The position numbers and the translations under genes are program-made. The notes beneath the pieces are model-generated. The model had not been told where the DNA came from, ran no database searches, and saw only the letters and a list, made by a program, of their open reading frames with translations. Of a DNA stretch of 50,940 nucleotides, positions 27,633 to 50,940 are shown one piece after another (position 1 is the stretch's first letter; the number at the start of each line of letters is the position of its first letter). The stretch is from Deltaproteobacteria bacterium (lineage in GTDB: Bacteria > Desulfobacterota > Syntrophia > Syntrophales > UBA2210), in NCBI GenBank assembly GCA_019313695.1, contig JAFDAS010000031.1:1-50940 (forward strand), read 5' to 3'.

Positions 27633-27659
27633 CGGCATTAAATGATAAGGAGGATTACT

Positions 27660-33014: not shown

Positions 33015-33782
33015 CTAAATCATTTTCCTGATTTCGTCCAGCACCTGCAGAGATTTTGGTTCTTTTCCGAGGATGTGGCGTATGAAATGTCTGAAGATAT
33101 CCCGGCTTTCTTTAAGGGCATTTTCTGACAGTACCAGCCTGTGTATCCGGTCTGTTTCTGTCTGCTTTCCCATGAGGAGTGTCTTGAGTGTCCCGGCGGA
33201 CACCGGTATGCAGTTCTGGTCGCCCCGGCCGCACAGCGAGCATCTTATGCCGCCCTTTGTCGCGTCGAAGAATGCGGCGTTGATTTCAGCAAGTGATGTG
33301 TTGCAGATTACGCACCTTCCCAGTGTGGGCTCATATCCTGAAAGCATGAGCAGCCGCAGCTCGAAAAATCTTGTTGTTTCCTCCAGACTATTTCCCGTCT
33401 CCAGAAGCCCCAGAAAACTGGACAGGAGTTGAAAAATGCCGGCGCTTTTCTTGCCTTCCGCGGTAAACTGGTCTACGAGATCGATCATATATGACGCGGT
33501 CATGGTTTTTTCCAGATCAGACCTGATCTCCGGATAATGATTGATTACGTCGCAGTTTTCTATAATGGTCAGACTGCCGTCACCTCTTCTGGAAAAAAGC
33601 AGCATGGAATGAGAGAATGGTTCGATGGCGTTGGAAAATCTTTTTTTGCTCCGTCTGGCCCCTTTGGCAATTCCACTGAGTTTACCGAATTCTCTGGTAA
33701 AGAACGTAATAATGCGGTCAGATTCCCCATAGTTGATGAAGCGAAGGACAAAGGCCTGTGTCTTGAAGGACGGCCTTTTCAT
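33015..33782 (-). CDS. recO: DNA repair protein RecO
   Basis: A 255-residue protein with an N-terminal OB fold (TQAFVLRFINYGESDRIITFF, GARRSKKRF) and a C-terminal zinc finger, CVICN...CSLCG, as in RecO. It loads RecA on SSB-coated single-stranded DNA together with RecR. Its ATG overlaps the mgtE stop (ATGA, 33779-33782), so the two are probably cotranslated. Confidence 0.93.
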   Translation of the reverse strand: MKRPSFKTQAFVLRFINYGESDRIITFFTREFGKLSGIAKGARRSKKRFSNAIEPFSHSMLLFSRRGDGSLTIIENCDVINHYPEIRSDLEKTMTASYMIDLVDQFTAEGKKSAGIFQLLSSFLGLLETGNSLEETTRFFELRLLMLSGYEPTLGRCVICNTSLAEINAAFFDATKGGIRCSLCGRGDQNCIPVSAGTLKTLLMGKQTETDRIHRLVLSENALKESRDIFRHFIRHILGKEPKSLQVLDEIRKMI

Positions 33783-35140: not shown

Positions 35141-35223
35141 GACAGGCACCCATTGACAAACTAAAATGATATTTATTACCATGTCTTAGGAACCGGGGCA
35201 AGACCTGTTTTTTCTGTTGACTT

Positions 35224-35256
35224 TGGCAGGTTGTCTATGGCAGCTTAACTTGGCAG
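35224..35256. repeat. Three TGGCAG direct repeats upstream of the activator gene
   Basis: TGGCAG occurs at 35224-35229, 35238-35243 and 35251-35256, at spacings of 14 and 13 bases, between divergent mgtE and the sigma-54 activator gene. They might be binding sites; no palindrome is present. Confidence 0.4.
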
Positions 35257-35277
35257 CTGTTATCTTGGGGGAGGGAT

Positions 35278-36967
35278 ATGAATGCATTAAAGGTGAAGTC
35301 TTCCGATCACAAAAGAGCAGACAAGGCATTAAGAACCCTCGAGGAAAGGCAGAAAACTATCCTTGAGGGTATTGAAGAAGGCTATGTTGAAGTTGATCTT
35401 GCAGGAAACATAGTATTCTGTAATGGCTCGTTTAGCAGGATAACAGGACGTTCCAAAGAAGAGCTTTTTGGAATGAATTATCGAGAGTATATGAGTGAGA
35501 CTATGGCAAAGGTCGTTTTTGCGGCTTACAATAAAGTCTACAACTCAGGGATACCTAACAAGGGATTTTATTATGAAATAATCAGAAAGAACGGCGATAG
35601 GAGAATTATAGAAAATTCCATATCTTTAGTGGAAAGTTCGGAAGACCATCGGACCGGGTTCCGCAGCGTTGTCCGTGATATCACTGACCACAAACAAACT
35701 GAAGAAGAACTGGAGAAGCATCGCAGCCGTTTGCAGGCCATTTTTAGAAGCGTAAAAGATGCCATCATCACAGTCGATACCGAGATGGTGGTGATTGAGG
35801 CAAATGAGGCCGTAGAAAACATCTGTGGTTTAGCTCCTCAAAAAATTACAGGCAGGGTATTCGCTAATTGTTCGACCCAATGTAACAAAAACTGCCACGA
35901 AGTCATTAAAGAGACCTTGAGAAGTAAAACCACGATTAGGGAATACCGGATAAAATGCAACCACCATCATCGACCTCAACAGAGAGTAATTGTCACAAGC
36001 TCCCCGCTACTGAATCGAGATGACAAATTTATGGGATCAGTCGTTGTCATAAGGGACATAACCAGGCTTAGCGACCTTGAACGGGAATTGAAAGAGAGGC
36101 ATCAGTTTCAAAAGATTATCGGGAAGAGCAGCAAGTTGCAGGACCTCTACGGGCTCTTAAATGATTTAGCTGATTTGAAGACTACCGTTTTGATCACAGG
36201 CGAGAGTGGCACAGGAAAGTCACTGGCAGCAAAGGCCCTTCATTATAGCGGAAACCACGCTTTAAAACCGCTGGTAACGGTAAATTGCTCTGTTCTATCC
36301 GAAAACCTGCTTGAAAGCGAGCTGTTCGGGCATGTGAAAGGCGCTTTTACTGGTGCCATAAAAGACACACAGGGCCGCTTCCAGGCCGCGTCCGGCGGAA
36401 CGATTCTGTTGGACGAAATCGGAGATGTATCTCCGAGAATACAGCTCAAACTTTTGAGGGTTCTTGAAGAAAGAGAATTTGAGCGGGTGGGAGAGTCTGT
36501 TCCCATAAAGGTGGATGCCCGTGTTGTAGCATGTACAAACCGGGACTTGAAAGAAATGGTCAGGCTGGGGGAATTCCGGGAGGACCTTTATTATCGTCTG
36601 AAAGTTGTGGAGGTGAAAATGCCATCCCTCCGTGAGAGGGTTGAGGATATTCCGTTGCTTGTTGAGCATTTTTTGAGAGTTGAGGCACAGCATAGAACAC
36701 GCATTTGTCCTCTGTCGCGGCCCGATTATTTGCCTTGATCATTTGCCGGTAGATATAAGAGGGCACCACGACAATGGGCCGCGGATTAGCAAAAAAAGGT
36801 CTGGTGCGGAACGGGAAGAGATTCTCGCGGTTTTGGACAAGACATATTGGAACAAGGCAAAAGCTGCACGTCTTCTTGGAATAGACCGGAGTACTCTTTA
36901 CAGAAAAATCCACAAATACCGGCTTTTCAAATCTGAGGAAAATCTGTGGCATGCCACAGATGTGTAG
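35278..36967 (+). pseudogene. PAS-PAS-AAA+ sigma-54-dependent activator, frameshifted by internal deletion
   Basis: The first 466 residues form an enhancer-binding activator: PAS domain (~20-140), a second PAS domain (~145-265) with C183, C198, C202, C206 and C227, then an AAA+ domain with Walker A GESGTGKS (308-315), GAFTGA (355-360) and Walker B ILLDEIGD. After LLVEHFL the frame leaves the family: it stops at 36738, while [20 protein letters not shown] and a Fis-type HTH (AKAARLLGIDRSTLYRKIHKYR) continue in another frame to 36967. About 30 residues, including the expected WPGNVRE, are missing at ~36675. This would uncouple ATPase and DNA-binding parts, unless it is an assembly error. Start: GGGGGAGGGAT before ATG 35278. 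Confidence 0.88.
36942..36961. promoter_or_regulatory. Enhancer-like palindrome 1 (upstream activator site)
   Basis: ATCTGTGGCATGCCACAGAT is a perfect 20-bp palindrome in the last codons of the activator gene (encoding LWHATD). It is about 165 bp upstream of the predicted transcription start of the downstream sigma-54 promoter, the usual place for an activator binding site. Confidence 0.75.
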
Positions 36968-36979
36968 CGCAACACTTCC

Positions 36980-36995
36980 GTGGCATGCCACAGAT
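36980..36995. promoter_or_regulatory. Enhancer-like palindrome 2
   Basis: GTGGCATGCCAC repeats the core of palindrome 1 and shares its right flank AGAT. The two centres are 34 bp apart, close to three helical turns, so two activator dimers could sit on a similar face. A weaker GTGT...ACAC inverted repeat lies between them. Confidence 0.75.
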
Positions 36996-37091
36996 TCATA
37001 TCATTCACCGGGAAACATCTTTCCAGCTTTTTCCGGTTCAACTCCTTTTGAGCATTAAAGAAAATTTGCTTCCCCTTCCGGCCTTCGCCTT

Positions 37092-37106
37092 TGGCACACG
37101 TCTTGC
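37092..37106 (+). promoter_or_regulatory. Sigma-54 (-24/-12) promoter
   Basis: TTGGCACACGTCTTGCGA has TGGCAC at 37092-37097 and TTGC at 37103-37106, with GG (37093-37094) and GC (37105-37106) separated by exactly ten bases. This matches the YTGGCACG-N4-TTGC consensus. It lies about 107 bp downstream of enhancer 2 and 110 bp before the next gene. Confidence 0.85.
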
Positions 37107-37215
37107 GAACACCAGATGACAAGAAAGCTGATGGATAGAAGACAAGACCGTTGATCAAGGATTGCCCGCTAAAGCCACCTTAATTTCATGTAGGTAATCC
37201 AAATCAAGCGAAAGG

Positions 37216-37599
37216 GTGAAATTTCTCGTGAGGCCTGCCAAGCGTAATTGTGAAAATAACTACTCAATCAGTTCAATCGGAATGGATGCCTTTAATAAAG
37301 AGGTCCTTGGAGAAAGCAGGCCTGTTCTCGTGTTATGTATGCACCGGGACTCTGAATTTCAGGAGCAGACAGATGTCGTGGAGGGTGTCTGTAGGACTTA
37401 CGGTGAGAAGCTAAAGGCATTTCTAATGGATGAGGAGTTCATTGGAGCATTCAGGGAGAATTTCGAAGTAAAAGGGACGCCTACATTTATGATATTTATC
37501 GGAGGGGCCGAAAAAGGCCGAATGTTGGGGCAGACGGACCAGAAGGCTTTGGAAGACTTTGTGTCACGAACCCTATCGCTTGATCAAGAAGGTAAGTAA
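37216..37599 (+). CDS. Thioredoxin-fold protein lacking the CXXC motif
   Basis: A 127-residue protein with a thioredoxin-like core: PVLVLCMHRDSEF takes the place of the active-site strand and helix, and KGTPTFMIF provides the cis-proline (P89) strand. Only C41 is present where CGPC is expected, so it cannot form the usual disulfide. It is the first gene after the sigma-54 promoter and precedes the TRAP binding protein. A GTG start at 37216 is assumed; an ATG at 37282 is an alternative. The function is unknown. Confidence 0.7.
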   Translation: MKFLVRPAKRNCENNYSISSIGMDAFNKEVLGESRPVLVLCMHRDSEFQEQTDVVEGVCRTYGEKLKAFLMDEEFIGAFRENFEVKGTPTFMIFIGGAEKGRMLGQTDQKALEDFVSRTLSLDQEGK

Positions 37600-37765
37600 T
37601 TTGTTGATGGTGTTAAGTCTGCCTGTTCAGACAGTTTTTTGCTTGCTTGTGTTTTTGGCCTTCGAAAAACCAGTTAAGGAAATTGTAAATATGAAAGGGG
37701 GTATTAAAAAATTTATAGGGAGCGGAGGCAAGAATTATAAAAAAAACAAAGGAGGACGAGAGGAT

Positions 37766-38794
37766 ATGACGTCAGGAAAGGTTCTATTTAAAAGAATACT
37801 TGTTGTGCTTTTTGTGTTTGCGTTTTGTTTCAGTGTGATTGGGACCGCTCATGCGAAAAAACCCATATCATTTAAATTTGGCTTTGTAAGCAGCCCCAAG
37901 ATGCAGGGGGGCATATATGGTCAGCTCATCGAGAAATATGTCAATGAAGCATGCGAGGGGAAAGTTAAAGCTAAATTTTTCCCGAGTGCCCTCCTTGGAA
38001 CGGATCCAGAAATGATGGATAAAACCAGGCTCGGACTAATTCAGGGACTGATTGCTCCACTAAATGTCTATGGTAATGCCGTTCCATATGTAGATGTATT
38101 AATGCTCCCATTTGTTTCCAATAGTTGGGAAAAGGTTAATAATTTTATTGAATCTCCGGTCGCAGAGGAGTTCTTAAAAGGGGTCGAAAAGTATGGATAT
38201 AAAGGGTTGGGATACAGCGGCTATGGCCTGTCCGGACTTGAGTGTAACACTAAGGCAACCACTCTTGCTGAACTTCAGAAACTCAAATTTCGAGTCCCCG
38301 AGTCACCAGTTCTAAGGAGAACTTTTGAGGCCTTAAAAATCACTCCAATGGTTATTCAGTTTCCTGACCTCTATGAATCTTTAAAGCAGGGTGTTGTTGA
38401 CGGGTGCGATCTTCCTGCTGATGTTGCTGTTTTTGTGAAATTTACAGAGGTGATAAGGTATTTCATTCAAACAAACCACAATTTTGGGTGGTATATGTTT
38501 GCTGTGAACAAGAAATGGTACGACAATCTGCCAGGGGACGTTAAGGGACCATTTACGGAGGCTGTGAAACGTGCCAGCAGGGAATCAATAAAACGCAGCT
38601 ACGAAGCAGAGAAAGCGGCTCTTAAAGTTTTTAGTGAAAAGGGAATTAAAATTACCAAGGTTCCTGACAGAGAGTTGAAAAAGATGGTTGAATTAACAAA
38701 ACCGGTTTTTGACTGGAGATTACAATCCTATAATGACCAGGAAAGAAAATTGGCAATAAAAGTGCTTAAACAAATGGGGTATGAGTATAACTAA
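37766..38794 (+). CDS. dctP: TRAP transporter substrate-binding protein
   Basis: A 342-residue periplasmic protein with a signal peptide (FKRILVVLFVFAFCFSVIG, cleavage likely after ...TAHA at residue 30). LKFRVPESPVLRRTFEALKI carries the conserved arginine that binds the substrate carboxylate in DctP proteins, followed by VDGCDLP. It delivers an organic acid to DctQM. The start at 37766 gives an intact signal peptide; upstream in-frame ATGs do not. A strong hairpin terminator follows. Confidence 0.92.
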   Translation: MTSGKVLFKRILVVLFVFAFCFSVIGTAHAKKPISFKFGFVSSPKMQGGIYGQLIEKYVNEACEGKVKAKFFPSALLGTDPEMMDKTRLGLIQGLIAPLNVYGNAVPYVDVLMLPFVSNSWEKVNNFIESPVAEEFLKGVEKYGYKGLGYSGYGLSGLECNTKATTLAELQKLKFRVPESPVLRRTFEALKITPMVIQFPDLYESLKQGVVDGCDLPADVAVFVKFTEVIRYFIQTNHNFGWYMFAVNKKWYDNLPGDVKGPFTEAVKRASRESIKRSYEAEKAALKVFSEKGIKITKVPDRELKKMVELTKPVFDWRLQSYNDQERKLAIKVLKQMGYEYN

Positions 38795-38816
38795 AAAGAC
38801 TAATGGTTGGTGAGTC

Positions 38817-38857
38817 ATGTATTGTGGGCATGACAAATGCCCACAATACATTTTTTT
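38817..38857 (+). terminator. Strong hairpin terminator after dctP
   Basis: ATGTATTGTGGGCAT (38817-38831) pairs perfectly with ATGCCCACAATACAT (38837-38851) across GACAA, followed by TTTTTT. Placed between dctP and dctQM it probably reduces permease expression relative to the binding protein. Confidence 0.92.
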
Positions 38858-38964
38858 ATTGTTGTTAAAGAGTTTATCCTGAAAAATAGGATGTTTAAGT
38901 TTTTTACCATTTTTGCAAAAAATTTACACCTAATTGATGTCGTGTGATTATGTCAAACATCCGA

Positions 38965-39025
38965 GTTTTATTTCCACTACAATGCCGTAAAGCGGCATAG
39001 TGGAACTTCTTGTGAAACCGTCAAG
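38965..39025. repeat. Palindromic relic related to the IS remnant at 50 kb
   Basis: TTCCACT (38972-38978) and AGTGGAA (38999-39005) flank ATGCCG-TAAAG-CGGCAT, giving a long hairpin. Its right flank, ATAGTGGAACTTCTTGTGAA, resembles the right end of the transposase remnant (ATAGTGGAGCTTTTCACGAA at 50512). It ends just before the dctQ ribosome binding site. Confidence 0.5.
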
Positions 39026-39041
39026 ATTGGAGTGGAGTAAA

Positions 39042-39524
39042 ATGCTGTCAAGAATCGAAAAGATGCTGTCTGAAACTGAAGAAATCATTATTTTTTTAAG
39101 CATTTTTAGTTCATTAATTGTCATATTTGTCAATATTGTTCTGCGGTATTTATTTGCAAAGGGATTTGTGTTTTCGGAGGAATATGCCCGTTATTCAATG
39201 GTATTATTGGTTTACATAGGTGTAAGCCAGGCAATAAAGAAAAACAGCATGATAAGAGTTGATATCATTTCGAGTTTTATACCGAAGGCCAGATTCTCTC
39301 TGGATTTAATTGCCAATATATTTTCACTGATAGCAGCCATTATCCTGATTTGGTTCGGTTTAAAATTCACGATTTGGCAATACTCGACGGGGCAAAAATC
39401 AATTGCTATGGAACTTCCTATGTGGATAGCATTTGCGATTGTTCCGCTAGGAGGCTCACTCATGTTTATGCGTTATACTATAAGCACAATTGGAATGATA
39501 AAGAAGGCATCGAGAAAGGCATAA
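39042..39524 (+). CDS. dctQ: TRAP transporter small permease
   Basis: A 160-residue membrane protein with four hydrophobic helices, the second including NIVLRYLFAKGFVFSEEYARY (the family's conserved W/EE-E-AR region). The ATG at 39042 follows GAGTGGAG; an in-frame GTG at 39000 would start in a repeat relic. It stabilises the large permease DctM, whose gene starts 3 bp after its stop. Confidence 0.9.
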   Translation: MLSRIEKMLSETEEIIIFLSIFSSLIVIFVNIVLRYLFAKGFVFSEEYARYSMVLLVYIGVSQAIKKNSMIRVDIISSFIPKARFSLDLIANIFSLIAAIILIWFGLKFTIWQYSTGQKSIAMELPMWIAFAIVPLGGSLMFMRYTISTIGMIKKASRKA

Positions 39525-39527
39525 AAA

Positions 39528-40805
39528 ATGGATATGATCATACTTTTGGTGTTCTTACTGCTGGTTTTAATCAGTGTTCCTATTGGACTTGCTTTGTTCT
39601 TGGCTGCGGTTTTTGGTTTCATGTATTTCGCAGACCTGCCACTGATTATGATGGGGCAGGCTATGTTTTTGAAATTGGATAAGTTTTCACTACTGTGTGT
39701 TCTGTTTTTCGTTCTTGCCGGAAATCTTATGACACGTGGGGCCATAGCTCGAAAAATTGTTGAATTTGCTGAAGCACTTGTAGGGCATCTGAAGTCAGGT
39801 CTACCAATAGCGAGTATTACTTCCTGCGCTTTATTCGGGGCTGTTTCAGGATCTGCTCTCGCCACCCTGTCAGCTATTGGGGGTCTCATGGTCCCGGCAC
39901 TGAGGAAACAAAAATTTTCAAATAGTTTTTCTGTGGGTCTCTTAACTTCTTCTTCAATATTAGGGATTATAGTCCCACCAAGTATTCCAATGATTATTTA
40001 CTGCTTGGTTGCTGATGTTTCTATTGCGAAACTTTTTATGGCCGGATTTCTCCCCGCTATAGTTTTGGTGATTCTATTAAGTATTTATGCTGTCTTCCGT
40101 TCAAACAAAGAGAGTATCGGAAAGCATGGAAAATTCAGTAGCCGTACCCTATGGAGGACATTCGGGACAGGTGTTTGGGCCTTATTCATGCCGGTCATTA
40201 TTTTCGGCGGTATTTTTTCAGGCATGTTTACAGCAACAGAAGCTGCCGTTGTTGCAGCTGTTTATGCTTATTTAGTTGAATTCTTCGTGTACCGAGAATT
40301 ATCACTAAAAGAGATATATCGTATCACTGTGGACTCCGGCTTGATGGTAGCAACAATATTAATTATCACGGCTGGCTCAATGGTTATGAGTGATTATCTG
40401 ACCATTATGGAGATTCCTGACCGAATTACGACATGGATCACCGGAATCGTAGACACAAAAGTTTTCTACTTATTAATAGTGAACATCATGTTGCTTGTGG
40501 TTGGTACATTTATGGAGGTTATTGCTGCAATTCTAATTATGGCACCCATATTGCTGCCGGTTGCAGTAGCATTGGGAGTAGATCCGGTTCACTTTGGTAT
40601 AATCATGTGTTTGAATTTAGGAATCGGGTATATCACGCCACCTGTTGGAGTAAATTGCTTCTTGGCATCAGGAATATTTAAGATACCAGTCGTTAATGTT
40701 TTCCGATATGTGGCTCCGACACTTATTGTGCTCATGATAGCCCTTGTTTTCATAACATATATTCCTGGTATTAGTATGCTGTTACCTAATTATTTCCTGG
40801 GTTGA
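39528..40805 (+). CDS. dctM: TRAP transporter large permease
   Basis: A 425-residue protein with about a dozen membrane helices, with PIGLALFLAA, SGSALATLSAIGGLMVPAL and GIIVPPSIPMIIY signatures of the DctM/IT superfamily. It is the sodium-driven channel for the acid delivered by DctP. Next gene: CoA-transferase alpha subunit, 40 bp downstream. Confidence 0.94.
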   Translation: MDMIILLVFLLLVLISVPIGLALFLAAVFGFMYFADLPLIMMGQAMFLKLDKFSLLCVLFFVLAGNLMTRGAIARKIVEFAEALVGHLKSGLPIASITSCALFGAVSGSALATLSAIGGLMVPALRKQKFSNSFSVGLLTSSSILGIIVPPSIPMIIYCLVADVSIAKLFMAGFLPAIVLVILLSIYAVFRSNKESIGKHGKFSSRTLWRTFGTGVWALFMPVIIFGGIFSGMFTATEAAVVAAVYAYLVEFFVYRELSLKEIYRITVDSGLMVATILIITAGSMVMSDYLTIMEIPDRITTWITGIVDTKVFYLLIVNIMLLVVGTFMEVIAAILIMAPILLPVAVALGVDPVHFGIIMCLNLGIGYITPPVGVNCFLASGIFKIPVVNVFRYVAPTLIVLMIALVFITYIPGISMLLPNYFLG

Positions 40806-40845
40806 TGAAAATAACAAAAAATAGAAGGGTTCAAGGAGGCAGTTA

Positions 40846-41790
40846 ATGGAATCGTCTAAGATTATGACGGCGAAAGAAGCGGTGTCAAAATTTATCAAAG
40901 ATGGGATGACGGTCTTCGTTGGGGGATTTTTTCATGCGATTTCCTATACGATAACGCATGAAATAATAAGGCAAAATAAGAGAAACCTCACTATTTGTCA
41001 ATCCAGCTTTAATGAGCATGCCGATCAGATGATTGGTGCGGGGTGTATAGACAGGATCATTTCATCGTACGTGTGGATGGAGGTTTTCGGTCCCCTTTAC
41101 TGTTTCAGGCGAGCAATGGAAAAGAGTATTCCTCATAAGATTGAGATGGAAGATTATTCCAACTTTGCCATGACAGTGCGATTCTTAGCGGGGGCATTAG
41201 GAATACCTTATTTGCCGCTCAATTCCCTGAAGGGAAGTGATATGATGACACATTCGCAATGGATGGGTGAGAACAAAGTAAAATTGATAGAAGATCCTTT
41301 TGGATCAGGTATTAGTCATGCTGTAGTCCCGGCACTAAAGCCGGAAATTGGATATTTTCACGCACAGCGGGCTGACGAGGAGGGAAACGTTCAAATGTGG
41401 GGCATTCTTGGAGATGCGCCCTGGAGCGTGAGGGCCTGTGACAAGGTCATCGTTTCGGTAGAGGAAATTGTGAGTCGGGAAGTTATCGGAAGAGATCCGA
41501 ACAGGACAATACTTCCTGCATATAAAGTTGCAGCAGTAGTTAAAGAACCTTTTGGTGCCCATCCGAAAAATACTCAAGGATACTATAACGTGGATAGGGA
41601 TTTTATATTTGATTACATAAAAATGTCGAAAAAGGAAGAAACGTGGAAAGAATTCATGGAAGAATGGGTGTATAGCGTTTCCGATCGTACGGAATATATG
41701 AATAAATATATTAAGAAATTTGGATTCAGAAAGTTTATGGACCTGAAAGCGGAAAATATGCAATCAGGCTCGGTAAGTTATGGATACTAA
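40846..41790 (+). CDS. CoA-transferase subunit A (glutaconate/3-oxoacid CoA-transferase family I)
   Basis: A 314-residue alpha subunit. MTAKEAVSKFIKDGMTVFVGGFFHAISYTITHEIIRQ is the N-terminal family motif and YFHAQRADEEGNVQMWG the internal one. The size matches GctA of glutaconate CoA-transferase (about 320 residues) rather than the shorter SCOT alpha. With the next gene it would move CoA from acetyl-CoA or another donor to the imported acid. An AAGGAGG site precedes the ATG. Confidence 0.88.
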   Translation: MESSKIMTAKEAVSKFIKDGMTVFVGGFFHAISYTITHEIIRQNKRNLTICQSSFNEHADQMIGAGCIDRIISSYVWMEVFGPLYCFRRAMEKSIPHKIEMEDYSNFAMTVRFLAGALGIPYLPLNSLKGSDMMTHSQWMGENKVKLIEDPFGSGISHAVVPALKPEIGYFHAQRADEEGNVQMWGILGDAPWSVRACDKVIVSVEEIVSREVIGRDPNRTILPAYKVAAVVKEPFGAHPKNTQGYYNVDRDFIFDYIKMSKKEETWKEFMEEWVYSVSDRTEYMNKYIKKFGFRKFMDLKAENMQSGSVSYGY

Positions 41791-41801
41791 GGAGGTCTGT
41801 C

Positions 41802-42581
41802 ATGTCTGAAAGAGGTTATGATTTTACTTTGCAGGAACTAATGGCCGTTGCGGCATCAAGAGAAATTCATGACAAGGAAAAGGTTATTGTCGGAACGGGT
41901 CTTCCTCTATTGGGATCTATGCTTGCAATGAGGACCCATGCTCCTAATATGATTGCTATCTATGAATCGGGAACAATTGAAGCCAAACCGTCAATTACAC
42001 CTTTTTCTGTCGCCGATTCCTGTTTAGTTCCCGGGGCGGCTATGCAGGGTGGACTTGTCGAGGGACTTGGTATTGTCCATGCCGGTGAACTGGATGTTGG
42101 ATTTCTCGGCGGAGCCCAGGTTGATAAATTCGGCAACCTCAATGCCCATGTCATCGGAGATTATTACAATCCTACCGTACGGTTTGCCGGAAGCGGAGGG
42201 TCCAATGACATAGGCTGCGGATGCAAACGGACGATAGTTATGATGCTTCATCAAAAACGAAGGTTTGTGGAAAACGTCGATTTCCTGACAACCCCCGGGT
42301 ACTTAACCGGTGGAGATGCAAGAGAAAAGATGGGATACCCGGGAAATGGACCTGCCGTTGTTGTATCAACGCTGGGAATACTCCGGTTTCATCCTGTAAC
42401 GAAAGAAATGTATTTAGAGTCTTACCATCCAGGTGTAACGGTTAAGATGATTATAGAAAATACCAGTTGGAATTTAAAGATAAACGATGATGTGAAGGAA
42501 ACGGAACATCCAACTGTTGAAGAGATTAGAATTCTCAGAGAAGAACTGGACCCGACAGGAATATTCCTAAATAAACAATAA
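41802..42581 (+). CDS. CoA-transferase subunit B
   Basis: A 259-residue beta subunit with the catalytic glutamate readable as E55 (NMIAIYESGTIE), the same place as E54 of GctB. GGLVEGLGIVHAGELDVGFLGGAQVDKFGNLNAHVIG is a strong family segment, and GSGGSNDIGCGCKRTI binds CoA. It follows subunit A by 11 bp with an AGGAGG site. Substrate likely a dicarboxylate or unsaturated acid by association. Confidence 0.9.
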   Translation: MSERGYDFTLQELMAVAASREIHDKEKVIVGTGLPLLGSMLAMRTHAPNMIAIYESGTIEAKPSITPFSVADSCLVPGAAMQGGLVEGLGIVHAGELDVGFLGGAQVDKFGNLNAHVIGDYYNPTVRFAGSGGSNDIGCGCKRTIVMMLHQKRRFVENVDFLTTPGYLTGGDAREKMGYPGNGPAVVVSTLGILRFHPVTKEMYLESYHPGVTVKMIIENTSWNLKINDDVKETEHPTVEEIRILREELDPTGIFLNKQ

Positions 42582-42605
42582 ACTCATTGAGGAGGTGCGA
42601 TAGAT

Positions 42606-43370
42606 ATGGATAACGTTGTACTATACGAAAAGAAAGAAGATATTGCTATCATCACCTTTAACCGTCCAGATTCCCTTAATGCCCTAAATACTGACGTTAA
42701 TATAAAACTCATTGAGTTACTTGATAAGGCAGAAAAAGACGATGAAGTGGGAGTAGTTATTTTAACAGGTTCAGGAGAAAAGGCGTTTGTGGCCGGTGCT
42801 GACATCAAGGAAATGCTGAATATGGATCCTATAGGTGCCAGAGAGCACGCAATTCGAGCGAAGGGTGCCGCAGACAAGATTTACGATCTAAAAAAACCTG
42901 TTATCGCGGCAATTAATGGCTTCTGTCTGGGTGGGGGAATGGAATATGCCATGGCATGTGACTTCCGTGTCGCTTCCGACAATGCAAGGTTTGGTCTGCC
43001 GGAAATAAATCTCGGTATTATGCCGGGCTCTGCGGGAACACAGAGGCTTCCTCGCCTTATCGGTATGGGAAAAGCGAAAGAACTGATTTTTTCTGGAGCC
43101 ATGATCGATGCCACGCAGGCGCTTAATCTCGGCCTGATAAATTATATTTTCGAAAGATCAGCACTACTGGGGGAGGCTATCAAACTGGCAAAAAAAATCG
43201 CATCGAAGAGCTCTGTTGCCCTGTCCCTTATTAAATCGGCGATGAACAAAGGTACGGAGATCGATCTCGAATCGGCTTCCATGTTTGAAATAGATTGTTT
43301 TGCCCTTTGCTTTGCCACAAAAGAACAGAAAATGGGAATGGCAGCGTTCGCTGGTAAGAAAAAAGACTGA
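42606..43370 (+). CDS. Enoyl-CoA hydratase (crotonase)
   Basis: A 254-residue crotonase-fold enzyme with both catalytic acids, E113 (GGGMEYAMACDFR) and E133 (LPEINLGIMPGSAGTQRL), equal in spacing to E144/E164 of rat crotonase. GAFV-type oxyanion loop is FVAGADIKEM. It hydrates enoyl-CoA to 3-hydroxyacyl-CoA and is followed by the dehydrogenase that would use the product. Confidence 0.93.
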   Translation: MDNVVLYEKKEDIAIITFNRPDSLNALNTDVNIKLIELLDKAEKDDEVGVVILTGSGEKAFVAGADIKEMLNMDPIGAREHAIRAKGAADKIYDLKKPVIAAINGFCLGGGMEYAMACDFRVASDNARFGLPEINLGIMPGSAGTQRLPRLIGMGKAKELIFSGAMIDATQALNLGLINYIFERSALLGEAIKLAKKIASKSSVALSLIKSAMNKGTEIDLESASMFEIDCFALCFATKEQKMGMAAFAGKKKD

Positions 43371-43526
43371 TTCTTCATTTCAGATAGTTTTGAAAGAATG
43401 AGTTTTGACCACCGGGGTTTGGATCTGTCCATAAATTGTGGGCGGTTTGTCCCTCCTTTCCGCTCACAATGCCCCGTGTTTATAGCCCAAAAAAGAGAAA
43501 AAATTTGTTGCGTGAGGAGAAATATC

Positions 43527-44381
43527 ATGACGGAAAAGATAGTAGTAATAGGAGCAGGAACAATGGGTTCCGGCATTGCCCAGGTTGCAGTTGAAGCCGG
43601 TTTTACCGCGATCATCGTGGATACAGAAGAGAAATTTATTGAGCAGGGAATTGGAAATATCAAAAATTTTATCGAAAAGAAAGCTGCCAAGGGGAAAATT
43701 ACCCCGGAACAACATGATGATATTTTGTCAAGACTCACAGGAACGGTGGACATGGAGACAGCCGTTGACGGGGCTGTCATGGTGGTTGAAGCAGTGTTTG
43801 AAAACCTGGAACTGAAAAAAGATATCTTTGAAAAAATCGATGCACTGTGCCCACAGGACGTTATATTGGCAAGCAATACCTCAACGATGAGTATATCAAA
43901 AATCGCAACCGCTACTACACATCCTGAGCGTGTAATCGGCACACATTATTTCAGTCCGGTACCATTAATGCGCCTCGTTGAGGTTATCAGGGGAAAGGAA
44001 ACGAGTGATCTAATAACAGAGAAAACCGTCACTATCTGTCAACAATTAGGAAAAACGCCTATCACGGTAAAAGATGTTCCAGGATTTATCGTTAACCGGT
44101 TTTTGTGCCTCCTGTACAACGAGGCGGCAAACATGGTGTACAACGGTGTCGCATCCCCTGAAGAAATTGATACGGCACTTAAACTCGGATGCAACTGGCC
44201 GATGGGAGTTATTGAAATCATGGACATGGCTGGTGTGGATGTGTGTGGCTTGGCCATGGAGGCGATGTATAAGATGACAGGCGAAGAGAGATATAAACCC
44301 TCCCCAATGTTTAAAAAGATGATGGATGAAAATCGCATGGGACGTAAAACCGGCAGGGGTTTCTATGAGTATGGAAAGTAA
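43527..44381 (+). CDS. hbd: 3-hydroxybutyryl-CoA dehydrogenase
   Basis: A 284-residue enzyme of normal Hbd length. It has VVIGAGTMGSGIAQVAVEAG (NAD), VVEAVFENLELKK, SNTSTMSI, the catalytic histidine in GTHYFSPVPLMRLVEVI, and KDVPGFIVNRFL. The ATG at 43527 follows GAGGAGAAAT; longer upstream frames have no such site. About 155 bp separate it from the hydratase, with no recognisable gene between. Confidence 0.92.
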   Translation: MTEKIVVIGAGTMGSGIAQVAVEAGFTAIIVDTEEKFIEQGIGNIKNFIEKKAAKGKITPEQHDDILSRLTGTVDMETAVDGAVMVVEAVFENLELKKDIFEKIDALCPQDVILASNTSTMSISKIATATTHPERVIGTHYFSPVPLMRLVEVIRGKETSDLITEKTVTICQQLGKTPITVKDVPGFIVNRFLCLLYNEAANMVYNGVASPEEIDTALKLGCNWPMGVIEIMDMAGVDVCGLAMEAMYKMTGEERYKPSPMFKKMMDENRMGRKTGRGFYEYGK

Positions 44382-44447
44382 AAGGAGAGAAACCGTATAA
44401 ACATAAGTTGATTAGTGCCTTTATTTTCAACAAAAGAGGAGCATAAG

Positions 44448-45668
44448 ATGGATAAAAGAGAAGTAGTATTTGTAGATGGTGTGCGCACCGCTTTTGGCAG
44501 GATGGGAGGATCACTTAAGGATATTATCGCAGAGGAGTTAGGTGTCATAGGTATTAAAGGACTTCTTGAAAAAACGAATGTCCATGAAAAAGCCCATGTT
44601 GATTGTGTCTTTTTAGGAACAGCATTAGGCTGTTCTCATGCCTTGAATCCTGCACGATGGGTGTTACTGGCTGCCGGACTGCCGGAGAGTACTTCCGCTT
44701 CGTATGTGGAGATGCAATGTGGTTCGGCAATTGATGCAATCAACCATGCGGCCTGGAAGATCCTCTGTAATCATGCAGATATTGTCATTGCAGGAGGAAT
44801 GGAGGCATACAGTCAGGTGCCGGCTAAATTTTCCATGAGTGTAGAGCCATATCGAATGAATCCGCCAATGTCTCTGGAGTCGTGGCTTTCTCCTGTAAAA
44901 GAAGGAGAAGAGTTAATCGGTCCTAGCGAGATGGGGATAACGGCGGAGAATCTTCAGGTAAAATACGATATCAGCCGGGAAGCACAAGACGAGTTTGCTT
45001 TCCGAAGTCAGACGCTGGCAAAGAAGGCAATGGATGCTGGATACTTCGAGGAAGAGATCATCCCGGTTACCATATCCCAAGGGAAGAAAAAGCCGCCTAT
45101 AGAATTCAAGGTTGATGAGCATCCGCGCTTGTCCCCGGTGAACGTGCTGGCGACTCTCAAACCAGTATTCAAGAAAAATGGAACGGTCACCGTGGGTAAC
45201 TCATCTGGTCGTAATGACGGTAGTGCCTTTGTCTTGATGATGACCAGAGAAAAGGCAAGAGAATGTGGTTATGAACCGATCGCGAAGTGGATCAGCGGAG
45301 GGGATTATGGCGTAGATCCTAAAATTATGGGTGTTGCGCCTGCTTATGCAATGCCAATGGCTATGAAGCGAGCTTCACTGAAGCTTTCAGACCTTGATGT
45401 TATAGAGTGTAACGAGGCCTTTGCTGCGCAAAATCTGGCAGTTATCAAAGAACTGGAGAATCAGACCGGCGAAAGGGTTGATATGGATGGATGGAACCCC
45501 AATGGTGGTGCAATCGCATTTGGCCATCCCAACGGAGCCTCCGGAGCGCGTATTTGTATGTTTACAATGCGCGAACTGATCCGCAGAGGCGGAAGGTACG
45601 GAATCTTTAGCTCCTGTTGCGGCGGTGGCTTGGGTGTTGCGACAGTTATCGAAAATCTGATGCTGTGA
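44448..45668 (+). CDS. Acetyl-CoA acyltransferase (thiolase), island copy 1
   Basis: A 406-residue thiolase. Nucleophile C91 (VEMQCGSAIDAI); histidine motif NPNGGAIAFGHPNGASGARI; second cysteine in FSSCCGGGLGVAT. The start at 44448 has AGAGGAG upstream. It differs clearly in sequence from the copies at 27660 and 47813, so the three are paralogues, not recent duplicates. Confidence 0.93.
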   Translation: MDKREVVFVDGVRTAFGRMGGSLKDIIAEELGVIGIKGLLEKTNVHEKAHVDCVFLGTALGCSHALNPARWVLLAAGLPESTSASYVEMQCGSAIDAINHAAWKILCNHADIVIAGGMEAYSQVPAKFSMSVEPYRMNPPMSLESWLSPVKEGEELIGPSEMGITAENLQVKYDISREAQDEFAFRSQTLAKKAMDAGYFEEEIIPVTISQGKKKPPIEFKVDEHPRLSPVNVLATLKPVFKKNGTVTVGNSSGRNDGSAFVLMMTREKARECGYEPIAKWISGGDYGVDPKIMGVAPAYAMPMAMKRASLKLSDLDVIECNEAFAAQNLAVIKELENQTGERVDMDGWNPNGGAIAFGHPNGASGARICMFTMRELIRRGGRYGIFSSCCGGGLGVATVIENLML

Positions 45669-45868
45669 GATACGATATCTTTCAGCGAAATAATAGAAAT
45701 AAATGGGAGATAGCAATAGATTACATAGACAGCCGACGTATTGCGAGCACGGCTACTATGCGCATAGGAAAGTGAATGAGAGTAAGAAAGTCTTTAGAGT
45801 GCTGCGGGAATTCCGTTTGCCCATGAGCTCATCCCATATTGTTAAAATAATGAAGGAGAAATATAGTA

Positions 45869-47674
45869 ATGGCCGAAAAATTTGTAAGTGAAAAGAATCT
45901 GAAATTCATGCTGTATGACGTATTTGATGCCGCATCGCTCGTTCAATATCCCTATTATTCGGAACACTCCAGGGAAATGTTTGACATGATCTTGGAGACC
46001 GCCATCAGAATTGGCAGAGATATGCTCCTGCCGTGTTTTGAAGAAATGGATAAAAACCCCCCCGAATTAGTAGGTGGTAAAGTGAAAGTCCATCCCATGG
46101 TAAAGGACCTTATGGCGGAGTTTGGAGAAGGGGGATGGATATCATCAACCGCTTCCATGGAGTTTGGCGGGCAGCAACTTCCTCATTTGATCGATCTTAT
46201 CCCGAGATTCATCTTTGCCGCTGCTAACTATTCGGGAAGCGTCTATCCTATGCTCACCACGGAAGCCGCACTCCTCATCGCCTCTTTTGGTAGTGAAGAC
46301 TTGAGACACACTTACTTGCCCCCCATGTTCTCTGGTAAATGGCAGGGGACGATGGCTCTCACGGAACCACAGGCGGGGAGTTCGCTCGCAGATATTATGG
46401 CGACGGCGGAACCTACCGACGAAAGATATTACAAAATCCGCGGGCAGAAAATCTTTATCTCTGGATCTGACCACGATGGAGTGGAAAATGTGGTTCAACT
46501 CCTGCTTGCCAGAATAAAAGGCTCGCCTGTCGGAGTTAGAGGGATTTCTTTGTTTGTGGTACCCAACAAGAGAATTGGAGAAAATGGTGAGTTGATTCCG
46601 AATGATGTCAACGTAACTGGTATTTACCACAAACTTGGCTACAGAGGCTGTCCCATAAACCAGTTGAGCTTGGGGGAGGAAGATGATTGTCGTGGTTACC
46701 TCGTAGGAGAGCCCAATAAGGGATTGGCATATATGTTTCAGATGATGAATGCTGCCCGGATTGGTGTAGGGCTTGGCGCAGCAGCTATTGGTTCTGCAGC
46801 ATATTATGCTTCCCTTGAGTACGCAAAAGAGCGTCCCCAGGGCAGGAAACTGACAGATAAAGATCCTTCCAAACCCCAGATACCCATTATTGAGCATGCA
46901 GATGTCAAACGTATGTTACTTTTCCAACGGGCTATCGTCGAAGGGTCTCTTTCACTTCTTTGCCAGTGCAGTAAGTATCATGATTTGAAGGTTGTCCTTG
47001 CAGGAGAGGAAAAAGAAAAATACTCCCTTCTGCTGGATCTTCTGACCCCCGTTGCAAAAAGTTATCCCTCTGAGATGTGTATCTTAACGACAAGTCAGGG
47101 GCTCCAGATCCTGGGAGGATATGGCTACTGTGACGAATTTCCTCTTGAACAATATTATAGAGATGTGAGGATTCACCCCATTCATGAGGGAACCACAGGA
47201 ATTCATGGTATAACCATCCTTGGCAGAAGCATCACCATGAATAATGGCAAAGCATATCAGCTTTACTTGAAAGAAGTACAAAATGTTATTCAAGAAGCAA
47301 AGGATATAGTCGATCTTAATCCTTCTGCGCAGGCGCTCAACGATGCCCTTGAACAGCTTCGGACGACGACTTCTCATCTGCTGGGTGTGGCAAAAAGTGG
47401 AGATCAAGAGCTTTTCTTGGCTGATGCAACCCTCTATCTTGAACTATTTTCAATAATTGCCATTGCCTGGCAATGGTTGCTACAAGCTATTGCAGCCCAT
47501 AAGGCCTTGGAGAATAATCCTTCAGAGGATGATACTAACTTCTATGAGGGGAAACTGTATACATTCCGATATTTCTTTAGCTATGAACTTCCCAAAATAG
47601 AAGGCTTAGTAAAGCGTCTGAATAATAGTGATGGATTGACTGTAAAGATGAAGGAAAAATATTTTGCTGATTAA
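45869..47674 (+). CDS. Acyl-CoA dehydrogenase, ~600-residue type, island copy
   Basis: A 601-residue enzyme with the same layout as that at 23236. FAD segment MALTEPQAGSSLADIMATA, catalytic glutamate E440 (IHPIHEGTTGIHG), and GGYGYCDEFPLEQYYRDVR. The AAGGAGAAAT site precedes the ATG. It would perform the initial dehydrogenation of the acid's CoA ester; in a glutarate pathway a decarboxylating or non-decarboxylating glutaryl-CoA dehydrogenase is normally ~390 residues, so this longer type argues for another substrate or an unusual variant. Confidence 0.93.
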   Translation: MAEKFVSEKNLKFMLYDVFDAASLVQYPYYSEHSREMFDMILETAIRIGRDMLLPCFEEMDKNPPELVGGKVKVHPMVKDLMAEFGEGGWISSTASMEFGGQQLPHLIDLIPRFIFAAANYSGSVYPMLTTEAALLIASFGSEDLRHTYLPPMFSGKWQGTMALTEPQAGSSLADIMATAEPTDERYYKIRGQKIFISGSDHDGVENVVQLLLARIKGSPVGVRGISLFVVPNKRIGENGELIPNDVNVTGIYHKLGYRGCPINQLSLGEEDDCRGYLVGEPNKGLAYMFQMMNAARIGVGLGAAAIGSAAYYASLEYAKERPQGRKLTDKDPSKPQIPIIEHADVKRMLLFQRAIVEGSLSLLCQCSKYHDLKVVLAGEEKEKYSLLLDLLTPVAKSYPSEMCILTTSQGLQILGGYGYCDEFPLEQYYRDVRIHPIHEGTTGIHGITILGRSITMNNGKAYQLYLKEVQNVIQEAKDIVDLNPSAQALNDALEQLRTTTSHLLGVAKSGDQELFLADATLYLELFSIIAIAWQWLLQAIAAHKALENNPSEDDTNFYEGKLYTFRYFFSYELPKIEGLVKRLNNSDGLTVKMKEKYFAD

Positions 47675-47812
47675 AAATGTAATCGGTGGGGTTAATTAAA
47701 TGAAGCCGTCTTGATGCTCTTTAACAAATCAAGTGTATTTTTCTTCAATCATTGGTCTTAGGCAATGGCATCAAGACGCTTCAGAATAGAATTTGATTCA
47801 GGAGGAAATTTT

Positions 47813-49036
47813 ATGAGTAAAAACGATGTTGTTATAGTAAGCGCAGTACGGACCCCCTTTGGCAGGTTCGACGGGATTCTCAAGACCACGTCAAGTTTTG
47901 ACCTTGGTATTGATGTGTTGAAAGAGGTTATTGGCCGAATAGGATTAGATCCGAAAGATGCGGACGAGGTCTACTACGGGACATGCATACCCGCCGAGTA
48001 TGCAATTCTGACCAATGTTCCGGCGAGACAGATTACCCTTGGTGCCGGATTTCCCGAAGACAATATATCGCTGACGATTGACCGTGCCTGCTGTTCATCC
48101 ATGACGGCTCTTCGCCTTGGATGCCGTGCCATCAAGTCAGGGGATGTTGAGGTGGTCATTGCTTCGGGAGCGGAGAACATGGGCAATGTTCCCCTGATTG
48201 CGAGTGCTGCCAAGGTGAGGTGGGGAAATCGTTTAGGACCCATCGAACTGGAAGATGTTCTGTTTGAACTCGGGTACGGACGGAGGGGATTCGCGCCCGT
48301 GGCAACCGATGCCGGACATGTTGCCATTGAGTATGGTGTTTTCCGAGAAAAGCAGGATGAGTGGGCGCTCGGAAGTCATCAGAAATGGTTCAATGCCTAT
48401 GGTGAAGGCAAATTTAAGATCGGCGAAGAGATTATGACAATCGAAGTTCCACAGAAGAAGGGTGATCCGATCATTATGGACAGAGATGAGTCGCCCAGAG
48501 AAAACCTGTCGCCGGAAAAAATGGCTTCCTTGAAACCCGTCTATGGAAGCCCCACGGTAACGGCAGGGAATGCCCCCGGCATGAATTCCGGCGCCTCGGC
48601 CATGGTCATCATGAGCCGCAAGAAAGCCGAAAGTATGGGGTTAAAGCCCCTGGCTACCATAGAAGCATGCCAGGCAGCTGCCGGTGCACCCAAATATATG
48701 GCATGTGTTCCTGCTCAGGCAATTGGGAAAATGTTGGTAAAACAGGGAAAAACCATCGATGACATGGACCTGATTGAAATCAACGAGGCATTTGCGGCGG
48801 TAACGCTGGTATCGCTCAAGATGCTTGCCGATGATGATCCTGGAAAGTGGCAGGAACTTCAGGACAAAACCAATGTGAATGGAGGAGCCGTAGCAATCGG
48901 CCATCCGGTAGGGGCAAGTGGTGCCCGTGTGACAATGACGCTGATGTACGAACTGATGCGCAGGGGTGGCGGCAGAGGGGTCGCCGCCATCTGCGGCGGA
49001 CTTTCACAGGGTGAGGCGATTATGATAAATGTGTAA
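47813..49036 (+). CDS. Acetyl-CoA acetyltransferase (thiolase), island copy 2
   Basis: A 407-residue thiolase with [21 protein letters not shown] at the start, nucleophile C94 by alignment to the FCSSG motif ([11 protein letters not shown]), [20 protein letters not shown] and the late Cys in [12 protein letters not shown]. The ATG at 47813 follows CAGGAGG. With the copy at 44448 the island has two thiolases, which fits two successive cleavages. Confidence 0.93.
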
Positions 49037-49438
49037 TGTATAATAACTGATTGTAATTTATGAAAACATGTCAGAATACGTGGTACATGAACATGAATGA
49101 TATTCGCGTTTAATAACCGTCAGCCAAGTATTTAGTTTTATTATATTCAATAAATAATCCTGAGGGTATACAGATGGGTTATTCATTAATATAGAAAAAG
49201 GTTAAAATAAACGATTTGTGTAAAAGCGTAAAAGATGACAATCAGTCGCTCTTAATATTCGCTTTATGAATCTGTAAATAATTATCGTAAAGTTCTTGCA
49301 AAAATGGCAAGAAAAAAATTCGCCATGCCCGCAAAACCTTTTACATAAAGACTTTACGGCGATTTTTAGAAAATTCAACTTTTTAAAACCTTCTTGATTC
49401 CGGCTTGTCCGGGTTAGGTGTTGGAAGAGGAGAACAAT
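49037..49438. other. AT-rich intergenic region before uspA
   Basis: No gene is apparent. A perfect 7-bp inverted repeat TTCTTGC/GCAAGAA lies near 49295-49315, and outer CGTAAAG/CTTTACG arms (about 49289 and 49355) could pair around it. A TTGATTCCGGCTTGTCCGGG hairpin segment lies at about 49394-49413, just before the uspA ribosome binding site. It may hold the uspA promoter; I cannot assign boxes. Confidence 0.5.
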
Positions 49439-49963
49439 ATGTTACCTAAAATCCAAAAAATTCTTTACGCAACAGATCTTTCGCCAAATACTGCCTATGT
49501 TTTTCGTTATGCCATTAACATGGCAATCAAACATGATGCCGAAATCTTCTTGTTACACGTGATCGAAGAAATGCCTGCAAGTGCCAGAATTCTGATAGAT
49601 CTTGAACTTTGTGCTCATGAGGGGACGCGCGATGAACGAATTGAGAGAAATGTTATAGATTATGTCGATAAAATTAAAAAACGGTTAGAAGTGTTTGTCG
49701 AGAAAGAACTTAAAGATCAACCCGAAGCTCTTGAGAGGGTAGTTTCGATAGAAGTGCATGAGGGTTATTCGACACATGAGATACTCAAAAAAACAAAAGA
49801 GTTAAATTGTGATCTGATCATTATGGGGAGTCATGGAAAAGGGCTCATTTCCCATGCATTTTTAGGGAGTGTGGCTGAGAGAGTACTTAGAAGGACAAAA
49901 ATACCGATTCTTATTGTTCCATTGCCCGACGAAATAACCGAAATACCGTTCCAATCTATTTAG
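49439..49963 (+). CDS. Universal stress protein (UspA family)
   Basis: A 174-residue protein with the ATP-binding UspA pattern G-x2-G-x9-G-S: IIMGSHGKGLISHAFLGSVAERVLRRTKIPILIVP. The start at 49439 has AGAGGAG upstream. Many anaerobes carry a Usp beside organic-acid degradation genes; its role is unclear. A decayed IS follows immediately. Confidence 0.9.
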   Translation: MLPKIQKILYATDLSPNTAYVFRYAINMAIKHDAEIFLLHVIEEMPASARILIDLELCAHEGTRDERIERNVIDYVDKIKKRLEVFVEKELKDQPEALERVVSIEVHEGYSTHEILKKTKELNCDLIIMGSHGKGLISHAFLGSVAERVLRRTKIPILIVPLPDEITEIPFQSI

Positions 49964-49968
49964 ACTGA

Positions 49969-50534
49969 GGTTTCACCGAAATTATGGCATATAGATTCAC
50001 GCAACCATGCGCAGTAAGGTATTCATGAAAGATTTTCGCGGGAGTTTGTCGTTCGTATAGCAAACAGCATCAAAATCGTCTGTCAGGGCGGTCTTGACAA
50101 TGATGTGCCTCAAATCTGAGAAAGCGAAACTGTTTCGGCCTCTGACTCTATGCCTGACGTTCAGGGATATTTTCAAGCCGTGCCCCATAGATTCAGGTAA
50201 TGGTGGCCGCCATCATGGAAAAGCTTATGTGATTTATAACGGCATGGGCATTGCGGGCTTGGCTTTTACTACTGTCTCTGTCCTTTTTGACATCTTTGAA
50301 CTTGGATCCGATTTTCCATCTTGCGTCATAGTGCTGATGAGATCTATTCTGTTCGGCACTCAAATCGAGATCGATAGAAAAGAGTGCAATCCACTGGGTT
50401 TTAGGAAAGCCACAGACTGCCCGAACAAGACACTTGAGTGTTTTGAACATGACAGTCTTTGAAAAGGTATTGACGATTCGGTATTTCCCATTATAATCCC
50501 GACTCATTGAGATAGTGGAGCTTTTCACGAAGCC
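49969..50534 (-). pseudogene. Decayed insertion-sequence transposase fragment
   Basis: The minus strand retains a transposase C-terminus: residues like LSAEQNRSHQHYDARWKIGS, KFKDVKKDRDSSKSQARNA and AVINHISFSMMAATIT fit the end of an IS4-type DDE transposase. After ATIT the codon TGA (50193-50195) replaces an expected tryptophan, and the rest (NVRHRVRGRNSFAFSDLRHI) is in a shifted frame to 49997, so it holds at least one nonsense and one frameshift mutation. The N-terminal two thirds are absent. Candidate ends are GGTTTCACCGAAATTATGGC on the left and ATAGTGGAGCTTTTCACGAA on the right. No target duplication is visible. Confidence 0.75.
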
Positions 50535-50559
50535 TCCAATGTTGTTTTGTCAAGTGATG

Positions 50560-50600
50560 CCTGCATGTGCTGCAGGGGTGGGTTTTTTTACAAAGCCATA
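50560..50600. repeat. Inverted repeat and MITE-type half-site before the carboxyltransferase gene
   Basis: CCTGCA/TGCAGG (50560-50576) forms a short hairpin followed by GGTTTTTTT, and TTTTTACAAAGCCAT (50586-50600) matches the right end of MITE copy 2. No left end or target duplication is found, so this may be a truncated element or coincidence. Confidence 0.4.
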
Positions 50601-50627
50601 AAATTTAGAGGGAAAGGAACAGATACA

Positions 50628-50940
50628 ATGGCAGAGAAAAAATTGACAAGGGCCGAAAAGCTGGAGGAAGGAAGGGCAGCCAATCTAAAACACTGGATTG
50701 CAGAGGATGAGGTCCTGTTCAAACACCGCGAAGAAGCTTACAATGTCGGCGGTCAGAAACAGCTGGATCGCCTTGCCAAACAGGGCAAGAAACCGATGCG
50801 CGAGCTTATATCAATGCTGATCGATTCGGATACCGAGTATTTTGAAGTGGGTCTTGATACCGGCTATGATATCGGTAAGAAAAGAGTTTACGGTGGAGAG
50901 ATCTACGAGCAGGAAAAGCGTGGGCATATACCAGGAGGCG
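50628..50940 (+). CDS. Acyl-CoA carboxyltransferase / decarboxylase alpha subunit, 5' end (partial)
   Basis: The reading frame starts MAEKKLTRAEKLEEGRAANL and runs off the window after ~104 residues. RLAKQGKKPMRELISMLIDS and DTEYFEVGLDTGYDIGKKRV match the N-terminal part of the biotin-dependent carboxyltransferase domain, as in glutaconyl-CoA decarboxylase alpha and propionyl-CoA carboxylase beta. The N-terminal lead of ~60 residues resembles the glutaconyl-CoA decarboxylase type. AGGGAAAGGA precedes the ATG. As part of this island it could turn glutaconyl-CoA into crotonyl-CoA. Confidence 0.8.
   Translation, partial: MAEKKLTRAEKLEEGRAANLKHWIAEDEVLFKHREEAYNVGGQKQLDRLAKQGKKPMRELISMLIDSDTEYFEVGLDTGYDIGKKRVYGGEIYEQEKRGHIPGG

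Follow-up and report, generated by a model that had tools for sequence, protein, structure and literature searches.

Gene content of the organic acid cluster

The window, a stretch of 50,940 nucleotides, is the complete contig C165 (JAFDAS010000031.1) of a 2.82-Mb metagenome-assembled genome (MAG; 282 contigs, 95.5 % complete) from the Syntrophales, and it carries an organic acid cluster at 37216–49036. All named genes of this cluster are open and lie on the plus strand. Behind the gene of a sigma-54 activator they follow in the order thioredoxin-fold gene, dctP, dctQ, dctM, ctA, ctB, ech, hbd, thl1, acad and thl2. The first-pass annotation of this DNA had listed the genes from the transporter to the second thiolase, and profile searches returned the expected Pfam domains across the cluster.

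37216–37599, +, thioredoxin-fold protein (Pfam, motif check)
37766–38794, +, TRAP (tripartite ATP-independent periplasmic) solute-binding protein DctP (Pfam, solved-structure search)
39000–39524, +, TRAP small permease DctQ (Pfam)
39528–40805, +, TRAP large permease DctM (Pfam, NCBIfam)
40846–41790, +, CoA-transferase alpha subunit, glutaconate CoA-transferase type (1poi_A, 151 bits)
41802–42581, +, CoA-transferase beta subunit with catalytic Glu (1poi_B, 193 bits)
42606–43370, +, enoyl-CoA hydratase, short-chain (crotonase) type (Pfam, model scores)
43527–44381, +, 3-hydroxyacyl-CoA dehydrogenase, hydroxybutyryl-CoA type (Pfam, model scores)
44448–45668, +, thiolase 1 (Pfam, model scores, solved structures)
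45869–47674, +, 601-aa acyl-CoA dehydrogenase, PF12806 type (Pfam)
47813–49036, +, thiolase 2, last gene of the operon proper (Pfam, model scores)

The transporter components scored 188.6 bits (DctP), 94.8 bits (DctQ) and 389.5 bits (DctM), all above the cut-offs, and the hydratase 226.7 bits (ECH_1); the other domains were two CoA_trans, 3HCDH_N with 3HCDH, two thiolases and an acyl-CoA dehydrogenase with PF12806. Every catalytic motif checked in the cluster enzymes was present, namely the ‘ESG’ glutamate of the CoA-transferase beta subunit, FGLPE and a second Glu in the hydratase, THYFSP in the hydroxyacyl-CoA dehydrogenase, Cys/NEAF/GHP/CGG in the thiolases and HEGT in the acyl-CoA dehydrogenase. 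Apart from the CoA-transferase Glu, we assume the catalytic role of these motifs to be the customary one. The thioredoxin-fold protein, first behind the sigma-54 promoter described below, carries no CxxC motif. The kinds of gene in the cluster are ordinary and already known; no description of this cluster was found in the literature searched, and no RNA element scored above the gathering score in 33000–50940.

In our view 37216–49036 was probably acquired laterally, as a catabolic cassette serving a single external carboxylate of short or medium chain length. The TRAP transporter would import the acid, the two-subunit CoA-transferase would move CoA onto it from acetyl-CoA (or another acyl-CoA) with no ATP spent, and the acyl-CoA dehydrogenase, hydratase, hydroxyacyl-CoA dehydrogenase and two thiolases would carry out beta-oxidation to acetyl-CoA units. 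Reducing equivalents would leave via electron transfer flavoprotein (ETF) and NADH, the standard exits in such biochemistry; no ETF gene was seen in this stretch. An uptake and beta-oxidation cluster, a sigma-54 promoter and transfer are the elements of the first-pass interpretation that we retain, whereas its decarboxylase and pimelate route are set aside below.

Composition, distribution and control region

The region is AT-rich, as had been noted, with a GC content of 0.438 for 37216–49036 against 0.493 for 1–37000. GC content at third codon positions (GC3) was 0.38–0.46 from dctP to acad and 0.35 in the universal stress protein (Usp) gene that follows the cluster. The reference value was 0.558 (sd 0.063), taken from 74 mechanical rather than curated open reading frames (ORFs) of at least 150 aa in five stretches of four other contigs and the left part of the window. 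Genes above 70 % identity to ctA were present in two of 99 other genomes (G059, 80 %; G042, 73 %). The six same-genus genomes held no close relative, five giving matches at best at E 1.7e-42 and one giving none. Five further loci at 71–76 %, drawn from the 12 loci confirmed in a second scan, belonged to MAGs of Smithella (two), Syntrophaceae, Syntrophobacteraceae and Geobacteraceae; matches at 30–47 % in the first scan were many, and the neighbourhoods of 11 were examined. Identities of ctA and glyS were 80/66 % in G059, 73/62 % in G042, 76/62 % in Smithella and 71/46 % in the bog genome G101. Since proteins evolve at different rates, the only informative point is that ctA identity stays level while glyS identity falls. 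Together, the low GC3, the lack of a close same-genus relative and the excess of ctA over glyS identity give good support to the earlier suggestion of acquisition by transfer.

The region upstream of the cluster contained the following features, listed here with a hairpin inside the cluster.

35278–36967, +, PAS-PAS-AAA-HTH sigma-54 activator gene, interrupted (alignment with G012, whose ortholog is intact at 607 aa)
36945–36958, no strand, palindrome TGTGGCATGCCACA, probable activator-binding site 1 (from sequence only)
36979–36992, no strand, palindrome CGTGGCATGCCACA, probable activator-binding site 2 (one-mismatch copy of TGTGGCATGCCACA)
37092–37106, +, sigma-54 −24/−12 promoter TGGCACACGTCTTGC (exact match)
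37110–37215, no strand, breakpoint zone (DNA homology with G006 stops at 37109)
38817–38851, +, terminator-like hairpin with 15-bp stem and T run, between dctP and dctQ (hairpin scan)

Taken alone, the sigma-54 pattern did not exceed chance expectation (shuffles gave a mean of 2.9 at ≤1 mismatch), and dctM contains another exact match. Despite this we regard the site proposed in the first-pass annotation as real, because it is identical at the homologous place in the sister species G006; the form in G012, from another genus of the family, is TGGTATATGTCTTGC, and in both genomes it lies upstream of an acyl-CoA dehydrogenase gene. The two palindromes are 34 bp apart and are the sole places in the genome that match at ≤1 mismatch, and their positions are kept in G006 and G012 with diverged letters. 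A −24/−12 element with such sites upstream would be predicted to mark a sigma-54-dependent operon. In the activator gene, the first reading frame spans 35278–36738 and the HTH lies in a different frame, to 36967; near 36675 a stretch of about 95 bp, the WPGN motif among it, is absent and the frame changes. Identity to the 607-aa G012 protein is 69 % before the gap and 74 % after it. With this deletion the assembled sequence holds no intact cognate activator, and the adjacent one is probably non-functional as assembled. A relative of activator residues 1–486 at E ≤1e-100 was present in two of 13 genomes searched, its own included, and G006 has the C-terminal end alone, at a contig end.

Alignment of the window with G006 (locus L107) gave 86 % identity over 355 bp with no gaps, ending 3 bp after the promoter, and G006 and G012 (L106) match each other through the promoter into acad. 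Behind the promoter, G006 has acad-ech-hbd-thiolase and G012 has acad-hbd-SDR-thiolase, then MmgE/PrpD-like and TRAP genes. These clusters share the promoter region with the window and an acyl-CoA dehydrogenase 73 % identical to the 601-aa enzyme, but they are without ctAB, and their hydratase, dehydrogenase and thiolase are only 41–53 % identical. The genes behind the conserved control region therefore differ in the window lineage. The cassette would have come to lie immediately downstream of a sigma-54 promoter that was already resident and that, in the sister species and a related genus, drives another beta-oxidation cluster. Promoter capture, in which a foreign cassette landed within a few bases of the resident promoter and displaced the resident cluster, the activator then losing WPGN, is an explanation we offer tentatively and with some doubt. 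If it is true, the species re-wired its metabolism by swapping genes behind a conserved control region. The locus offers a compact example for comparing base composition, occurrence among relatives and a breakpoint a few bases past a promoter.

Several points weigh against a laterally acquired cassette. The breakpoint and the exchange of gene sets rest on three genomes, the MAG has a contamination estimate of 4.2 %, and the activator gap could reflect either genuine decay or misassembly. Thiolase 2 has an ordinary GC3 (0.539), and the cassette may thus have entered in more than one piece; the thioredoxin-like gene (0.492) and the activator (0.472) show a mild shift only. Orthologs of the 601-aa acyl-CoA dehydrogenase occur within the genus and the family (73 %), so this gene may have been resident. 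One simple transcript is made less likely by the hairpin after dctP and by gaps of 139–206 bp. The genes do run in one direction, as first described, but a single promoter for the whole stretch would be no more than a possibility, given the hairpin and the two gaps past 49036 (382 and 665 bp), and the carboxyltransferase at the contig end lies apart from the operon. The hairpin scan of the region returned 12 such sites against a shuffle mean of 12.7, the dctP–dctQ one having the longest stem. A hairpin in this place is as expected of an attenuator letting dctP exceed the permease genes.

Candidate substrates and the contig end

Glutaconate CoA-transferase (1poi) is the best solved relative of both CoA-transferase subunits. 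The window pair comprises two PF01144 subunits with a catalytic beta-subunit Glu, as in class I CoA-transferases of the Gct type. In PMC5380842, Glu54 of the beta subunit of glutaconate CoA-transferase is described as forming the anhydride; this residue is kept in the window beta subunit, unlike in IpdAB. Solved relatives of DctP and the thiolases gave no indication of substrate. Judged from sequence, a monocarboxylate would be a candidate at somewhat less than even odds, and a dicarboxylate, all routes counted together, one at slightly lower odds.

The first of these would be an operon of a syntroph for the oxidation of C4–C8 fatty acids, its glutaconate-type transferase having drifted to monoacids, and to this we give a little less than an even chance. 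The hydratase and hydroxyacyl-CoA dehydrogenase had their best scores with C4 models (crotonase, 3-hydroxybutyryl-CoA dehydrogenase), and the solved structures closest to thiolase 1 are acetyl-CoA acetyltransferases. A 381-aa acyl-CoA dehydrogenase adjoins ctAB in four loci (L030, L032, L033, L044), the two tested (L030 and L044) scoring best with short-chain-type models, and MAGs of Smithella and Syntrophobacteraceae are among the named relatives. Against this, TRAP transporters are not the usual route for butyrate, and the 601-aa acyl-CoA dehydrogenase is nearest to large FadE-type enzymes, which have been described for longer chains.

A dicarboxylate cassette with no decarboxylase, for example one taking adipate to succinyl-CoA and acetyl-CoA as an anaerobic counterpart of the dca operon, is possible but on balance unlikely. 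The functional parts are those we take dca to have, glutaconate CoA-transferase itself uses a diacid, and both thiolases gave 242–332 bits with 3-oxoadipyl-CoA thiolase models, below the cut-offs. Both, however, scored higher with general or short-chain models; the C4 preference of the hydratase and dehydrogenase also counts against adipate, as does the occurrence of the ctAB core beside an SSF symporter.

Beyond the last cluster gene, the window ends with three further features.

49418–49963, +, universal stress protein, separate unit or operon tail (Pfam)
50196–50528, −, IS701-type transposase C-terminal remnant (NCBIfam)
50601–50940 (ATG at 50628), +, methylcrotonyl/propionyl-type carboxyltransferase, second copy, cut (not an operon member)

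The gene at 50628 is cut after 104 residues because the contig ends at 50940. These residues have a 94 % identical copy on contig C276, and C165 and C276 share 340 bp at 96 %, ending at the same base, which points to a break of the assembly within a repeat. On C276 the copy has the same neighbours as this gene in G004 of the same genus, and so the window copy, of ordinary GC3 (0.519), looks derived; its remainder was not found in the assembly, as expected for two collapsed copies. Short dispersed repeats resembling repetitive extragenic palindromes, at 2593–2679 and 18772–18868 of the window, are also 92–98 % identical to C276 stretches. A full-length relative of 547 aa (L071), 89 % identical over the window's part and used as a proxy query, gave 376–382 bits to the beta chains of propionyl/acetyl-CoA and methylcrotonyl-CoA carboxylases (PCC, MCC) and 90 bits to the glutaconyl-CoA decarboxylase GcdA 1pix; MCC and PCC/AccD1 beta chains fall within the same 376–382 bits and are indistinguishable by score. 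Glutaconyl-CoA decarboxylase alpha, as which the gene had been read, was rejected on these scores. A propionyl- or methylcrotonyl-type carboxylase gene downstream, which the first-pass annotation had itself named as refuting its reading, is what lies at 50628.

The top matches and the partner genes, a hydratase and one like hydroxymethylglutaryl-CoA lyase, are those of a methylcrotonyl/acyl-CoA carboxylase. In the window's own genome a hydratase end and a lyase-like gene lie at the end of C189, into which either C165 or C276 may run on, the lyase-like gene at 125.8 bits with the lyase model, below its 246-bit cut-off. Among 11 neighbourhoods of the carboxyltransferase gene, no ORF matched the GcdB-like protein of contig C113, and one (L077) had a biotin-carrier-like ORF, compatible with either enzyme kind; in several high-GC loci the ORF caller picked antisense frames. 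As a duplicated gene of a carboxylase/hydratase/lyase module, the carboxyltransferase stands separately, outside the operon. Adjoining it is the decayed insertion sequence (IS) that had been reported within the region (E 4.4e-15; being a fragment, it scores 55.5 bits and falls short of the 170-bit cut-off), recognized with NCBIfam only and with no Pfam match worth naming. It had no match in plasmids or viral contigs and no second copy in its own genome or six same-genus genomes.

A dicarboxylate route such as pimelate to glutaryl-CoA to crotonyl-CoA, ending in glutaconyl-CoA decarboxylase, is accordingly improbable: the glutaconate-type CoA-transferase, the TRAP transporter and GcdA-like (589 aa) and GcdB-like (374 aa) genes on C113 would suit it, but the carboxyltransferase is a methylcrotonyl/propionyl-type duplicate beside an IS remnant, the 470-bit glutaryl-CoA dehydrogenase cut-off (NF045552) was reached neither by the 601-aa enzyme (101 bits) nor by the 381-aa enzymes of L030 and L044 (319 bits each), and no benzoyl-CoA-pathway ring hydrolase (TIGR03200) scored above cut-off in 11 genomes, its own included, a result on which a benzoyl-CoA route was likewise rejected. 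This corrects the tempting reading of a glutaconyl-CoA decarboxylase closing a diacid pathway. The Gcd names on C113 are ones we presume from the sequences, beside a PF01039 match. On the same contig (L005, 8660–12946) the GcdA-like gene lies opposite an mmdA-type carboxyltransferase split over two frames, possibly by a frameshift.

Related gene sets and known systems

Other clusters of related genes were noticed alongside the candidate cassette. The window itself has a second one at 22582–28847, with what we take to be a TetR-like regulator, a 621-aa acyl-CoA dehydrogenase, a fused dehydrogenase/hydratase and a thiolase. At L111 (G048 C41, 492–7070) a hydratase and dehydrogenase 82 and 70 % identical to those of the cluster precede acad (66 %), a Zn-ribbon-like protein and two thiolase-like proteins, resembling pairs of the BbsAB kind. 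A second ctAB group, about 45–47 % identical, lies in G007 (L047, 5674–13589) beside a pyruvate formate-lyase-like glycyl-radical enzyme, an MmgE/PrpD protein and an acyl-CoA dehydrogenase; these neighbour domains were tested in G007 only, and the loci of G011 and G010 (L048, L049) are alike by gene size and order.

Among the other ctAB loci, L033 and G042 (L044) have ctAB-ech-hbd, a thiolase and the 381-aa acyl-CoA dehydrogenase, to which G042 adds the SSF symporter and Usp. G059 (C25) has ech-hbd-thiolase-ctAB with a thiolase of a different kind, and in L032 ctAB lies beside an unclassified permease-like protein with no Pfam match; L031 and L034 were too short for comparison of gene sets. 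Different transporters beside one ctAB core fit an enzyme that activates an imported acid.

The closest counterpart of the cassette is in Smithella sp. PtaU1.Bin162 (L030), which has the same ten genes, dctPQM, ctAB, ech, hbd, thl1, acad and thl2. Identities are 70, 66 and 70 % for dctP, dctQ and dctM, 76 % for both ctA and ctB, and 68, 71, 67, 73 and 78 % for ech, hbd, thl1, acad and thl2. The gene order is different, the 381-aa acyl-CoA dehydrogenase is extra, and no match to the window activator occurs within 20.9 kb. The ten-gene set common to the window and Smithella is a recurrent unit of uptake and CoA transfer, the substrate of which should be easy to assay. GctAB of Acidaminococcus fermentans (1poi) resembles the CoA-transferase in having two subunits of similar lengths with the catalytic Glu kept; the window pair is distant from it and lies within a TRAP and beta-oxidation cluster, and CoA transfer to a diacid would be a prediction. 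The dca dicarboxylate operon of Acinetobacter, as we understand its gene functions, likewise combines uptake, CoA-transferase, acyl-CoA dehydrogenase, hydratase, dehydrogenase and thiolase in one cluster, but it is aerobic and has other transporters, and the likeness is one of gene functions, not of sequence.

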